Assembly: GCA_024222295.1 (NCBI GenBank)
Contig: JAAEPF010000002.1
Coordinates: forward strand, 310,001-374,000
DNA: 64,000 nt
DNA from: Actinomycetes bacterium
GTDB taxonomy: Bacteria; Actinomycetota; Acidimicrobiia; Acidimicrobiales; Microtrichaceae
Direction of reading: 5' to 3'
A program made the translations under genes and the position numbers. Below are positions 743 through 7,255 of the stretch, in pieces (positions within the stretch are counted from its first letter, which is position 1; the number at the start of each line of letters is the position of its first letter). Under the pieces are notes generated by a model. It was given only the letters and a program-made list of their open reading frames with translations. It searched no databases and was not told where the DNA came from.

Positions 743-1861
743 TCAGCGTGCCTGATCACCGAGGGCAGCCGCCTCGAGCAGCGACTCAGCCAGATCCTGT
801 GTCGTGACGTGCGCGTTGAGGCCACTGGGGTTTCCCATGACCCACACCGGTCGCCCGCCGATGGTCTTCTCCTGTGCTCCGGCGGAGGCCTTGCGGTCCA
901 CTGCGGCGCGCCATCCGGACAGGCCCACCATGCACACTGCCCCTGGCTGCAACCAGCGGCACAGGCGCTCCAGGCGGCCGAGGCCGTCGCCGTACTCGGA
1001 GTCGTCCAGCTCGGATGCCCGCGCCGTTGAGCGCTTGACGAGATCCGTCATGCCGATGCGGTGGTCGCGCAGTAGTGCGACGGGATCGCGGTCCACGGTT
1101 GCGAGGCCGGACTCGAGCAATGCGGGCCAGCCGCGGTTGGAGGGACCGGAGAACCCGACGCCGCTGTCGGCGGCGTGCAGCGACGGGTTGAGTCCCACCA
1201 GCAGGAGACGCATTCCGGGCCCGACCGTGTCAGCGAGGGTGCGTTCACGCCGGATCGTGACAGCCATGGTCGGCAGCTCGTCGGCGTTGGCAGGCTCTGT
1301 GCGCTCGATCGACTCCAGCGCGAATCCTGCCCCACCGATCACATCGACCAGTAGATCCTCGGGCCAGAGGGAGAACGCCCGGCCCTCGAAGTCGTCGCCC
1401 TCGAGGTGGTGGTGCTCCTGGTTGCCGCCGAACAGCAACAACCTCGCCACGGCGCCCACGGCCATCGACCGGTGAAGGTCCCACATGGCCATCGGCACCG
1501 AGCCGCGCCCCAGGTGCACATAGGAGTTCTGCGCCCACGCCGCCCGCAGCGACCCGCGCCGCAAGGGCAGCGCGCGAAGGTCGGCCTGCACCCTCGCGGC
1601 GTGGGGGGCGTGGTTCGGGACCTGCGCCAGCATCGACGCGGCGCCATCCAGCGCGATGGTGCCCGTGGGGAACGAGGGCAGGTGCCAACCGGGCCCGCAT
1701 CCGAGGTCGACCACCGCTGCGTCCGGCAGGGAGGCATCTTCCGCCAGGCGCTTCGCGAACCGTTCTGCACCGGCCATGGTCGGGCTGCGGCGCCGCACCC
1801 ACTCGCCACCGCGCCGCTCGTACACCTCGAGGGTGGCGCGGTGCGGATCGGGCCCGTTCAT
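743..1861 (-). CDS. Fusion of SAM-dependent methyltransferase and mismatch-specific uracil-DNA glycosylase (MUG/TDG-like)
   Basis: This 372-residue protein has two recognisable halves. Residues about 1-205 form a class I methyltransferase, with the SAM-binding motif VDLGCGPG at 51-58 and an acidic beta-2 end (LD, 71-72). Residues about 215-368 match the MUG/TDG branch of the uracil-DNA glycosylase superfamily. They contain GLNPS at 223-227, where the Asn corresponds to the catalytic Asn of the family GINP motif, then GFSGPSNRGWP and a C-terminal NPSGLNAH (344-351). MUG proteins remove U or T mispaired with G. The methylation substrate is unknown. The start at 1861 lies 8 bases past the stop of the upstream SDR, so the gene is the third of an LLM-SDR-fusion operon. 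The domain assignments are read from motifs; a joint role is inference. Confidence 0.8.
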   Translation of the reverse strand: MNGPDPHRATLEVYERRGGEWVRRRSPTMAGAERFAKRLAEDASLPDAAVVDLGCGPGWHLPSFPTGTIALDGAASMLAQVPNHAPHAARVQADLRALPLRRGSLRAAWAQNSYVHLGRGSVPMAMWDLHRSMAVGAVARLLLFGGNQEHHHLEGDDFEGRAFSLWPEDLLVDVIGGAGFALESIERTEPANADELPTMAVTIRRERTLADTVGPGMRLLLVGLNPSLHAADSGVGFSGPSNRGWPALLESGLATVDRDPVALLRDHRIGMTDLVKRSTARASELDDSEYGDGLGRLERLCRWLQPGAVCMVGLSGWRAAVDRKASAGAQEKTIGGRPVWVMGNPSGLNAHVTTQDLAESLLEAAALGDQAR

Positions 1862-1868
1862 CCCCGGG

Positions 1869-2786
1869 TCACTGGCCTGGGGCGTCCAGCCGCGCCTGGA
1901 GTTTCTGCATGCCGGTGATCCACCGGTCGTGGTCGGCTGCGCGGGCCTGTTCATAGGCGGCCACGTCGGGGTGGGGGAGGGCCAGGAACCGGCCCTCAGT
2001 CAGCGATCGCAGGGCTGCATTCGCAGCGTCGGACGGCTCGATGACTCCCTGGGCGCGCACCACGGCTATGGCCAGCTCCCGGTCGTGGTCGATGTGTGTG
2101 TCCTGGGCCGGGGCGGTACCCGAACGCAGCACCGCGAACTCATCGGCCTCGCCGCCGAACACCATCGGCGTGCGCACGCCTTGGGGGCAGAGACATGTGA
2201 CACCGACCCCGTTTGCCCCGTGGGTGATCGCAACCCACTCGGCGAATGCCACTGCCGCATGCTTGGTGGTCGAGTAGGCGGCGTCTCCCAGGTTGGAGAG
2301 CAGCCCGGCAGCGGACGCGGTCACGAGAAGGTGTCCGCTTCCACGCTCGGTCCAGCGCGGCACCATCACCGCTGCTGCGTGCACGTGGGCCATCACGTTG
2401 ACATCCCAGACACGCTGCCAGGTGTCGGGGTCGGCATCGAGTCCCTGCGCTGTGCCGATGCCGGCGTTGGCGCAGAACAACCCGACGTGGCCGTGCTCTG
2501 CCTCCACCTGCTCGACCAGGGTCGTGGTCGCGGCGCGATCCGACACGTCGAGGCCCGCCGGGGCGATCGTGGTGTTGGCGAACTCGGCGTCGAGCACTTC
2601 AGCGACTGCGGCCATGTGCTCCCCGTCGAGGTCGACGCCCACGATTAGCCGCGCCCCGGCGCCGGCCAGCGCACGTACGAGGGCTGAGCCGATTCCGCCG
2701 GCGGCGCCGGTCACGATGGCAACCGAGTTCTCTGGCTCGAACGGGCGGCTTGCCCCGCGTCCGGCGCTGCGGTCCTCGTTCGTCAT
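1869..2786 (-). CDS. Short-chain dehydrogenase/reductase (SDR)
   Basis: A 305-residue classical SDR. The cofactor motif TGAAGGIG is at 26-33, CANAG takes the place of the usual NNAG, and the catalytic Tyr-Lys pair is in YSTTK. An Asp after beta-2 (GVDLD) suggests NAD(H) preference. The substrate cannot be read from sequence, but a long variable C-terminal part after the PxGVxTPM region is typical of steroid or fatty-acyl SDRs of actinobacteria. The ATG at 2786 overlaps the stop of the upstream LLM gene in an ATGA arrangement, which fixes the start and implies translational coupling. An upstream in-frame extension exists but would lie inside the LLM gene. Confidence 0.85.
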   Translation of the reverse strand: MTNEDRSAGRGASRPFEPENSVAIVTGAAGGIGSALVRALAGAGARLIVGVDLDGEHMAAVAEVLDAEFANTTIAPAGLDVSDRAATTTLVEQVEAEHGHVGLFCANAGIGTAQGLDADPDTWQRVWDVNVMAHVHAAAVMVPRWTERGSGHLLVTASAAGLLSNLGDAAYSTTKHAAVAFAEWVAITHGANGVGVTCLCPQGVRTPMVFGGEADEFAVLRSGTAPAQDTHIDHDRELAIAVVRAQGVIEPSDAANAALRSLTEGRFLALPHPDVAAYEQARAADHDRWITGMQKLQARLDAPGQ

Positions 2787-3802
2787 GGCACGATCCGGTC
2801 CGGTCGGCAGGCGTCCACCGTTGCTTCGATGACAGCCGCGCGGTCGGGGCCCCATGGCAGTGGCATGAGCACCGGGTGGTCCACCCCGGCGTCGCGGTAG
2901 GCCTGCACCGCGGCCGCCACATGGGCTGCGTCGCCGCAGATGTCGATCTCGGCGACCATGCGCTCGGATATGGCGGCTAGCGCGGCTTCGCGGTCGCGCC
3001 GGCCGTGCGCAGCGAGCACCTCTTCGACCTCCTCGCCGTAGCCGGCGCGTTCGAACGCCCGCGCGTAGGCGGGCACGACCGCGTAGGAGAAGAGGTCCTT
3101 TCGTGCCGGTTCCAGCGCCGGGCCCGGATCACAGACGCCCACGTGCACGTAGGCGTACACCGTGCAGCTACCCCGCGGTCTGCCGGCGGCATGCTCCCCG
3201 GCGCGCACCTGCTCGACGCACCAGGGCACCGCGGACGCCGGGAGGTAGTTGAGAAGGACACCGTCGCAGAGCTCGCCGGCCATGCGCAGCATCCTCTCGT
3301 TGAGCGCACCGAGCACGAGCTTGGGTCGCTGCTCCGCGAGCCGAACCCCCAGGCGGAAGCGGTTGGCGGAGTAGTGCTCGCCGTCGTGGCTGACCGCCTC
3401 GCCGCTGAGGCACTGCCGGGTCAACTCCAGGTACTCGCGCATCTGTGACAGCGGCGTGTCGCCGTAGGTGCGCCCGTGCCACTTGCCGACCACCACGGGC
3501 GAGGAGATGCCGACACCCAGCAGAACGTCGCGGTCTCCCACGATCGACTGCAGCGTCGCGGCTCCCATTGCCGCCAGCATGGGTGTGCGTAGCTGGATCG
3601 CCAACACGCCGGTGCCGAGCTCGAGCCCGGGGTTCTCGGTGCCGATGGCGGAGAGCGTGGCGAACGCCTCCTGCGCGACGGTCTCCGCGGTCCAGTACGA
3701 GCGGTAGCCCGTGTCGGCGGCCAGGCGGGCGATGGCCCGGCCGGTGTCGAGGCCGAGGCCTCCGAAGCTGGCGAACGTGACGCCGGTGGGGGAATTGCTC
3801 AT
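2783..3802 (-). CDS. LLM-class (luciferase-like) F420-dependent oxidoreductase
   Basis: A 339-residue TIM-barrel protein of the bacterial luciferase-like superfamily. The typical order is present: an N-terminal strand ending FGGLGLDTGRA, the LGTGVLAI strand, LGVGIS, and a YxxxTRxxLxG-like helix (YLELTRQCLSG). In actinobacteria such enzymes usually bind coenzyme F420 rather than FMN; that is family knowledge and not visible directly. The substrate is unknown. It is the first gene of a three-gene unit with the SDR and the methyltransferase-glycosylase. A TAGGTT hexamer lies 8 bases before the ATG, suggesting a leaderless message. Confidence 0.85.
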   Translation of the reverse strand: MSNSPTGVTFASFGGLGLDTGRAIARLAADTGYRSYWTAETVAQEAFATLSAIGTENPGLELGTGVLAIQLRTPMLAAMGAATLQSIVGDRDVLLGVGISSPVVVGKWHGRTYGDTPLSQMREYLELTRQCLSGEAVSHDGEHYSANRFRLGVRLAEQRPKLVLGALNERMLRMAGELCDGVLLNYLPASAVPWCVEQVRAGEHAAGRPRGSCTVYAYVHVGVCDPGPALEPARKDLFSYAVVPAYARAFERAGYGEEVEEVLAAHGRRDREAALAAISERMVAEIDICGDAAHVAAAVQAYRDAGVDHPVLMPLPWGPDRAAVIEATVDACRPDRIVP

Positions 3803-5756: not shown

Positions 5757-6338
5757 TCAGCCAGCGGGTTGGCGCCAGAGCGAATCGATGGCGCTCGCGA
5801 GCCCCACTCCGATCAGCGCTCCACCGATGACGTCGCTTGGGTGGTGCACTCCGACGTGCACGCGACTCCAGCCGATCAGACCCGCCAGAGAGAACCAGGC
5901 GGCGTGGTGGCCCAGATCGCGGCTGAGCAGCGTGGCAGCACATGCTCCGGCGCTGGCGTGGCCACTCGGGAAGCTGGAGGTGCGCGGCGAGCGGAGGTCG
6001 TGGGGGTGGTCATCCAGCGGCTCGGGCCGTTCGCGGCGAAACAGCATCTTTGTGGGCCCGTTGACCACGGCCTGTTCGACTCCCTGGATGATGCTGCGGC
6101 GCAATGCCTTGCGGCGGCGTGACGGGTCACCCGAGATCGCAGGGCCGAACACAGCATCCACAGCGTTGATCGAGTGCCAGATGATGGAGTGGTTGCCGAC
6201 CTCCGACAGGGCATAGGCGAGCCGGTCGGCGGCGTGGTTGCGGCGTAGCTGCGCAGCCCACCGCTCGGTGGTGCGGTCAAAGCGCCTCACCACCCCGGGC
6301 ACCGGTGTGGGGGCCGGCTGGTCGAACCCGGAGCTCAC
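5757..6338 (-). CDS. PAP2-family membrane phosphatase
   Basis: A 193-residue protein with the complete PAP2 signature. K97-x6-R104-P105 is the first motif, PSGH at 124-127 the second, and S158-R159 ... G163-x-H165-x3-D169 the third. His127 and His165 are the expected phosphoryl-transfer residues. Hydrophobic segments follow the second and third motifs. Family members dephosphorylate lipid phosphates such as phosphatidate or undecaprenyl diphosphate. The GTG at 6338 overlaps the TGA of the upstream nuclease gene (GTGA), which fixes the start; a longer in-frame reading would be antisense-like Arg/Pro-rich sequence inside the nuclease gene. Confidence 0.88.
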   Translation of the reverse strand: MSSGFDQPAPTPVPGVVRRFDRTTERWAAQLRRNHAADRLAYALSEVGNHSIIWHSINAVDAVFGPAISGDPSRRRKALRRSIIQGVEQAVVNGPTKMLFRRERPEPLDDHPHDLRSPRTSSFPSGHASAGACAATLLSRDLGHHAAWFSLAGLIGWSRVHVGVHHPSDVIGGALIGVGLASAIDSLWRQPAG

Positions 6339-7198
6339 CCGTCGACCCGGCCCTCGAGGGTGACCGGAACCGAATCGGCTCCGGCGGCGGCCAGGGCCAC
6401 TGCGCGGGCTTCGTCGGGGTCTCCGCCGAAGGCTGGGCAGTACTGCTGGAACGAGCACCAATTGCACAGGGCGGAGGTCTTGGGCCGGAAGTCGTCGTGC
6501 TGACAGGCGCGCTCGACGGCGGCCCAGATGGCTCCCACCTTGCGCTCGAGACCCCTCACCGACTGCTCGGTGGGTGTGGCCGAGATGATCTGTGGCTCAC
6601 TGCCCAGGTACATGAGCTGGATCCGGGAGGGGATCTCGCCGAAATGGGCCTTGCACAGGAAGGCATAGAAGTGCACTCCGCCCAGCCTGGACTGCTCCTG
6701 CGACGGCATGGGTGTGCGCCCGGTCTTGTAGTCGGTCACCACCAGCGCACCATCGGCATCGCGCTCCAGGCGGTCGATGATGCCGCGGACCGTGACGCCG
6801 CCGATCTCGGCTTCGAGCATCAACTCGAGGCCGACGGGTTGCACCCTTCGGGGATCCTCGATGCCGAAGTAGCGCCCGAGCATCACCTCGGCATCCGCTG
6901 CGAACCTCACCGACGCGGCCTCATCGAGGCCCAGCTCGGCCCACTCCTGCTCGTAGCGGATCTCCTCGAGGGCCTCGGCCAGGCATTCGGCACCCCTCTC
7001 GGGTGTGCGGGTTGCGGGCTCGCCGGCCAGGAGCAGCTCAAGCGCGCGGTGCACCGTGGTGCCCTTGATCGCGGGCTCCGACGGTGCCTCCGGGAGCTTG
7101 TCGATCGCAGAGAACCGGAAGGCCAGGGCGCAGTCCTTGAACGACGCGACCTTGGAGGGTGACAACGAGCTCGGCAGCGGAAGGGCCATGTCTTGCAT
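6335..7198 (-). CDS. RecB-like PD-(D/E)XK nuclease with probable Fe-S cluster
   Basis: A 287-residue protein of the RecB/Cas4-like nuclease family. An N-terminal LSPSKVASFKDC segment supplies Cys23, and the C-terminus has CNWCSFQQYC. Together these four cysteines match the 4Fe-4S arrangement of AddB/Cas4-type nucleases. The catalytic core is seen as a GIIDRLE strand (metal-binding Asp) followed by VTDYKTGR (DxK). A long helical insertion lies between the first Cys and the core. The ATG at 7198 has GGTGG 7 bases upstream and is preferred over a GTG at 7219. It is translationally coupled to the PAP2 gene. There is no cas gene nearby, so a general repair role is more likely. Confidence 0.82.
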   Translation of the reverse strand: MQDMALPLPSSLSPSKVASFKDCALAFRFSAIDKLPEAPSEPAIKGTTVHRALELLLAGEPATRTPERGAECLAEALEEIRYEQEWAELGLDEAASVRFAADAEVMLGRYFGIEDPRRVQPVGLELMLEAEIGGVTVRGIIDRLERDADGALVVTDYKTGRTPMPSQEQSRLGGVHFYAFLCKAHFGEIPSRIQLMYLGSEPQIISATPTEQSVRGLERKVGAIWAAVERACQHDDFRPKTSALCNWCSFQQYCPAFGGDPDEARAVALAAAGADSVPVTLEGRVDG

Positions 7199-7255
7199 GG
7201 TAGGTCCACCCTGCGACACCGGGAGGCGACTGCGGCCTTGTTGGCGGGTTGGGGC

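Follow-up and report, generated by a model that had tools for sequence, protein, structure and literature searches.

On the minus strand of the window, by which we mean the whole 64,000-nucleotide stretch of DNA that was analysed, the gene at 743..1861 encodes a protein of 372 residues plus a stop codon, with zero internal stops. ORF translation, Pfam and full-length homologues identify it as a fusion in which a class I SAM methyltransferase (residues 1-205, 1247..1861, minus strand) runs without a linker into a Mug/TDG-type glycosylase of uracil-DNA glycosylase (UDG) family 2 (residues 206-372, 746..1246, minus strand). Pfam recognizes both parts above its curated cut-offs, as UDG (2e-10, residues 214-353) and Methyltransf_25 (1.2e-06, residues 50-133), and a phmmer search matched E. 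coli Mug, the best relative in the PDB, at 2.7e-21. An earlier note on this DNA had proposed these two domains, and the domain search bears it out; the length that it gave and its three motifs, VDLGCGPG, GLNPS and NPSGLNAH, are exact on the translation. An ATG at 1954 would provide a longer start, and homologues start near 1861. Bacterial Mug/TDG enzymes are usually bare glycosylases. The protein described here is a family 2 uracil-DNA glycosylase carrying a methyltransferase domain, a variant added to a known enzyme family, and the open literature holds no paper describing the fusion, subscription journals being outside the reach of that search.

The fusion is real: because the full-length frame recurs in many independent genomes, chance and a sequencing artefact can both be set aside. 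Homologues of full length were found at 43-63% identity in a search of 61 relatives, and the independent assemblies include the single-contig genomes G004, G034 and G543, as well as Aquihabitans sp. G128. The concern, already raised in the earlier note, that a sequencing error had falsely joined two genes can therefore be dismissed.

Upstream of the fusion, on the same strand, lie an SDR oxidoreductase (1869..2786; Pfam adh_short, 2.9e-39) and an F420-type LLM oxidoreductase (2783..3802; TIGR03841, above cut-off). The three genes are arranged head to tail, with an overlap of 4 nt between LLM and SDR and a gap of 7 nt between SDR and fusion. The operon that had been read from the sequence thus holds at the window as a head-to-tail arrangement, but not as a conserved context: among 70 loci, the gene immediately upstream of the fusion is an SDR in 14, a PAP2 gene in 13, an LLM gene in four and another gene in 39, and we rejected an LLM/SDR operon as a general functional rule. 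Other neighbours are mixed and include a response regulator, an L,D-transpeptidase and a DUF7064/7065 protein. The same minus-strand gene run contains, at 6335-7219, a candidate Cas4/RecB-like nuclease, named by its look, whose orthologues (54-66% identity) are close to the fusion in 12/80 loci.

The two halves of the protein

Both fold and sequence place the glycosylase half in UDG family 2, with a profile match at 3.1e-32 in addition to the match to Mug. Motif A, which holds the catalytic Asn, reads GLNPS (residues 223-227, 1181..1195, minus strand) where Mug has GINPG, with I-to-L and G-to-S substitutions. N225, P226 and S227 are found in 81/81 full-length forms, and position 237 is F or Y in all 81; a serine at the end of motif A also occurs in 7 of 29 ordinary Mugs. 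Motif B, the DNA-wedge loop, for which the family has NPSGL or MPSSSAR, was located by alignments and reads NPSGLNAH in the window protein (residues 344-351, 809..832, minus strand) and MPSTSGLNA in most members. The alignment to E. coli Mug is gap-free and pairs N225 with the catalytic Asn18, which is Asn140 in TDG, and F237 with the uracil-stacking Phe30 (PMC12001322). A230 occupies the position of Ser23 in Mug, which has been proposed to reduce thymine excision (PMC3488261), and of Ala145 in TDG, and the glycosylase pocket is therefore TDG-like at that point. D273 stands where Mug has Lys68 and TDG has Asn191, and G236 where TDG has His151, a residue that contacts 5caC (PMC3488261).

These residues set the family apart from ordinary Mugs. 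Its signature is GLNPS, D273 and mostly G or A at position 236, whereas ordinary Mugs carry GINPG or GINPS, N273 and H236, and the two groups split on the tree with an SH-aLRT of 100. One divergent row that was first labelled ordinary (L196) groups within the GLNPS subfamily. The NCBIfam search gave a G/U mismatch glycosylase at 5.5e-24, below the equivalog cut-off of that model, and with a score of 84.7 bits for the Mug equivalog PRK10201, whose curated cut-off is 144 bits, the fusion is a relative and not an equivalog. A role as the sole uracil glycosylase was discarded, as the window's genome has three UDG-superfamily genes. Most relatives also have three, and genomes with the fusion or with the shortened form described below have, as a rule, two such genes besides it.

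The N-terminal half has a Rossmann-like fold, a glycine-rich motif I and an acidic residue in motif II, as expected of a class I SAM methyltransferase. In motif I, VDLGCGPG (residues 51-58, 1688..1711, minus strand), D52, G54, G56 and G58 are conserved in 80/81 full-length forms, as is the motif II acid D72, and beyond the SAM motifs H116 is conserved in 80, R161 in 81 and W166 in 81 of them. Between pairs of full-length forms, pN/pS is 0.15-0.47 for the methyltransferase vs 0.12-0.28 for the glycosylase, values that indicate purifying selection on the methyltransferase. Because the SAM residues are near-invariant and pN/pS is low, the full-length form is probably a working SAM enzyme. The methyltransferase matches general Pfam methyltransferase families (Methyltransf_25/11), and no named NCBIfam family was matched above cut-off; with only matches below cut-off, we gave up assigning it to a named family.

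Modified DNA bases had been suggested in the earlier note as a possible target of the methyltransferase, an idea for which we found nothing in favour. The domain belongs to the Methyltransf_11/25 type, no DNA methyltransferase Pfam family matches the fusion, and neither the PCQ motif of C5 enzymes nor a DPPY-type motif ([DNS]PP[YF]) of N4/N6 enzymes is present in the sequence or the alignment, the segment after beta4 reading AQNSYVHL. A tie between the fusion and cytosine DNA methylation was likewise set aside, as C5-DNA-methyltransferase genes (PF00145) occur in 14/30 genomes with full-length forms and 8/30 with half forms, a difference that is not significant (Fisher p=0.18, kinship ignored). 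These results bear on the possibility that the methyltransferase acts at the lesion, where its methyl acceptor would be DNA, the abasic site, the base released by the glycosylase or else a repair protein. Its rigid fusion with a DNA-lesion enzyme fits this idea, and the conservation of H116, R161 and W166 suggests a defined acceptor site. However, we consider it improbable given the missing DNA methyltransferase motifs, the lack of a significant association with C5-DNA-methyltransferases and the frequent loss of the methyltransferase while the glycosylase persists.

An AlphaFold2 model of the fusion, built from a 20-row alignment, has a pLDDT of 94.5 and a pTM of 0.92, with no weak linker, and the methyltransferase domain modelled alone has a pLDDT of 96.7. 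When the whole model was compared with VIA-align, residues 208-370 superposed on E. coli Mug (1mug) with a Z of 24.2, at 1.9 A across 161 residues and 32% identity, and residues 4-207 on the SAM-bound structure 3e23 with a Z of 24.2 (24.4 for the methyltransferase alone). The high pTM and the absence of a weak linker suggest that the two domains are packed in a fixed arrangement, and from the pTM the C-terminal lobe of the methyltransferase would touch the glycosylase. With this packing and a conserved SAM motif, binding of SAM or SAH could regulate the glycosylase without any methyl transfer, the half forms being constitutive versions. Such a switch seems very improbable to us, however, as in full-length forms the putative acceptor residues H116, R161 and W166 match the SAM motif in their degree of conservation, which suggests catalysis and not just the sensing of a ligand.

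Distribution and repeated loss of the SAM-binding half

When named genome contigs were scanned, 80 loci came back, almost all from Acidimicrobiia MAGs; Candidatus Microthrix parvicella RN1 is among them, as is Aquihabitans sp. G128, whose genome is complete. Two of the records (L103 and L104), titled Acidobacteriota and Bifidobacterium breve, hold fusions of the Acidimicrobiia type and are probably mislabelled MAGs. Among 246 genomes of the class Acidimicrobiia, the fusion occurs in families outside the order too. In 396 genomes sampled across the phylum it was not found outside the class, where matches were to the Mug half or to a generic methyltransferase half. On plasmids and phages no match covered 80% of the query, and only Mug halves were among the best matches listed.

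Within the order, a census of 298 genomes at least 90% complete found the GLNPS subfamily in 120: 70 with the full fusion, a count that includes a few split between contigs or frameshifted, about 45 in which the C-terminal lobe is all that remains of the methyltransferase, and five without a detectable remnant, four of which belong to one family. The roughly 45 half forms have the same glycosylase, and of the methyltransferase ahead of it they keep just the last ~70 residues. No frame upstream of or near them yielded a SAM-binding half, with the exception of one frameshifted locus, which was counted as full. At that locus (L193, G598:C52:10400-14200), the SAM-binding half is out of frame with the remaining fusion, through a frameshift or an assembly error. 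In L195, an N-terminal VYE segment is joined straight to the C-terminal lobe, the mark left by an internal deletion. On the glycosylase tree, half forms lie scattered among full ones, with 22 parsimony changes, at least three of which are forced by well-supported (starred) branches, and two half forms (L021 and L026) share one starred clade with the window protein. The family has dropped its SAM-binding half on several occasions, a feature beyond the reach of the earlier note, and this indicates that methyl transfer is dispensable or optional in the fusion family.

What is kept is the lobe that corresponds to residues 119-205 (1247..1507, minus strand), as delimited by remnant alignments. Its helix segment (1472..1495, minus strand) retains P123 in 41/45, L126 in 41/45 and H130 in 42/45 half forms, and its GAGF segment G177 in 43, A178 in 38, G179 in 44 and F180 in 44 of the 45, so that these positions are 84-98% conserved, in counts that are biased towards matching because the remnants were added onto the full-form alignment. 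H116 is retained in just 9/45, and most half forms lack the lid region and R161. The remnants change fast overall (pN/pS 0.19-1.07), which points to constraint on the core of the lobe only, and several of their profile scores barely exceed the highest shuffled score, 8.5 bits, while a few fall short of it. The lobe seems to have a structural part in the glycosylase; given the fast evolution of the remnants, part of it may simply be decaying, and the five genomes without a detectable remnant mean that it is not strictly required. In three half forms (L162, L171 and L178), repetitive charged linkers with DRDRP-, DPGA- or VTERA-type repeats lie between remnant and glycosylase.

Two genomes of other families, G484 and G448, encode a stand-alone methyltransferase of the fused-domain family and a separate ordinary Mug. 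The stand-alone proteins (L216:3211-3774 and L217) share TVxxYE, GCGSGRYLPEL and FPGRxFSCW with the fused domain, and could be a candidate ancestral form from which it was derived. Separate domains, which in close relatives would have counted against the fusion, occur only distantly, in these two genomes.

The stand-alone relative also bears on whether the two halves are independent enzymes that share a chain for co-expression only, the methyltransferase modifying a small molecule or a protein. We regard this as unlikely, if the most serious of the alternatives. Relatives of the Methyltransf_11/25 type modify many small molecules and proteins, and selection on the methyltransferase of full-length forms is purifying. 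On the other hand, each time that the SAM-binding half alone was lost the C-terminal lobe stayed on the glycosylase, the protein has no linker and a model with a high pTM, no partner gene is conserved, and outside G484 and G448 the strong matches to the methyltransferase half sit within long, fusion-sized frames.

A proposed role and comparison with known systems

The explanation that we favour, with modest confidence, is a glycosylase with a rigidly packed N-terminal methyltransferase, of which the retained lobe became a structural or DNA-contact part. The constant activity would be that of a Mug/TDG-family glycosylase of the distinct GLNPS subfamily, which probably flips uracil, perhaps also thymine, opposite guanine out of the DNA and would cleave the base with N225, so that base excision repair begins. 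In full-length members the methyltransferase would still bind SAM and, kept by selection, act on some acceptor. Since several lineages did lose the SAM-binding half, the core job of the family would not require methyl transfer; in those lineages the C-terminal lobe, with its P..L...H helix and GAGF segment, stays beside the glycosylase, most likely as a structural or DNA-contact part. A bolder combination, to which we give little credence, is that methyl transfer is coupled to the lesion and acts on a repair intermediate, and that the lobe left over in the loss lineages serves as a DNA clamp of the glycosylase.

A class-wide fusion with several losses of its catalytic half provides a natural series of full, half and absent methyltransferases, with which one can ask what an appended enzyme contributes to a DNA-repair protein. 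It is also a clear example of an enzyme fragment apparently converted to a structural part, and one that could be tested with a few purified proteins.

Of the enzymes already described, human TDG and E. coli Mug (1mug) share with the fusion the fold, the catalytic Asn, the uracil-stacking Phe and the NPSGL of motif B, and differ from it in having GINPG in place of GLNPS, in the residues at D273, G236 and A230 (the last as in TDG) and in lacking the added N-terminal methyltransferase. The Mug of D. radiodurans (DR_0715, 2c2p/2c2q) has the same fold (Z 19.9), also without a methyltransferase, and uses Asp93 as a catalytic residue (PMC5128194). The GLNPS subfamily, too, has an Asp, the conserved D273, a likeness of presence and not of an established alignment position. 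RPA2492 (3e23) and cg3271 (3h2b), class I methyltransferases without an assigned function, share the fold (Z 24.4 and 21.2) and the SAM motif of the N-terminal domain, but are stand-alone proteins with 17-20% identity to it. E. coli KsgA, which to our knowledge has no UDG domain and is not related to the UDG fold, resembles the fusion in having methyltransferase and glycosylase activities, in the fusion predicted ones, on one chain. It is an rRNA dimethyltransferase with reported DNA glycosylase activity, and its C-terminal part is required for DNA binding (PMC10091538).
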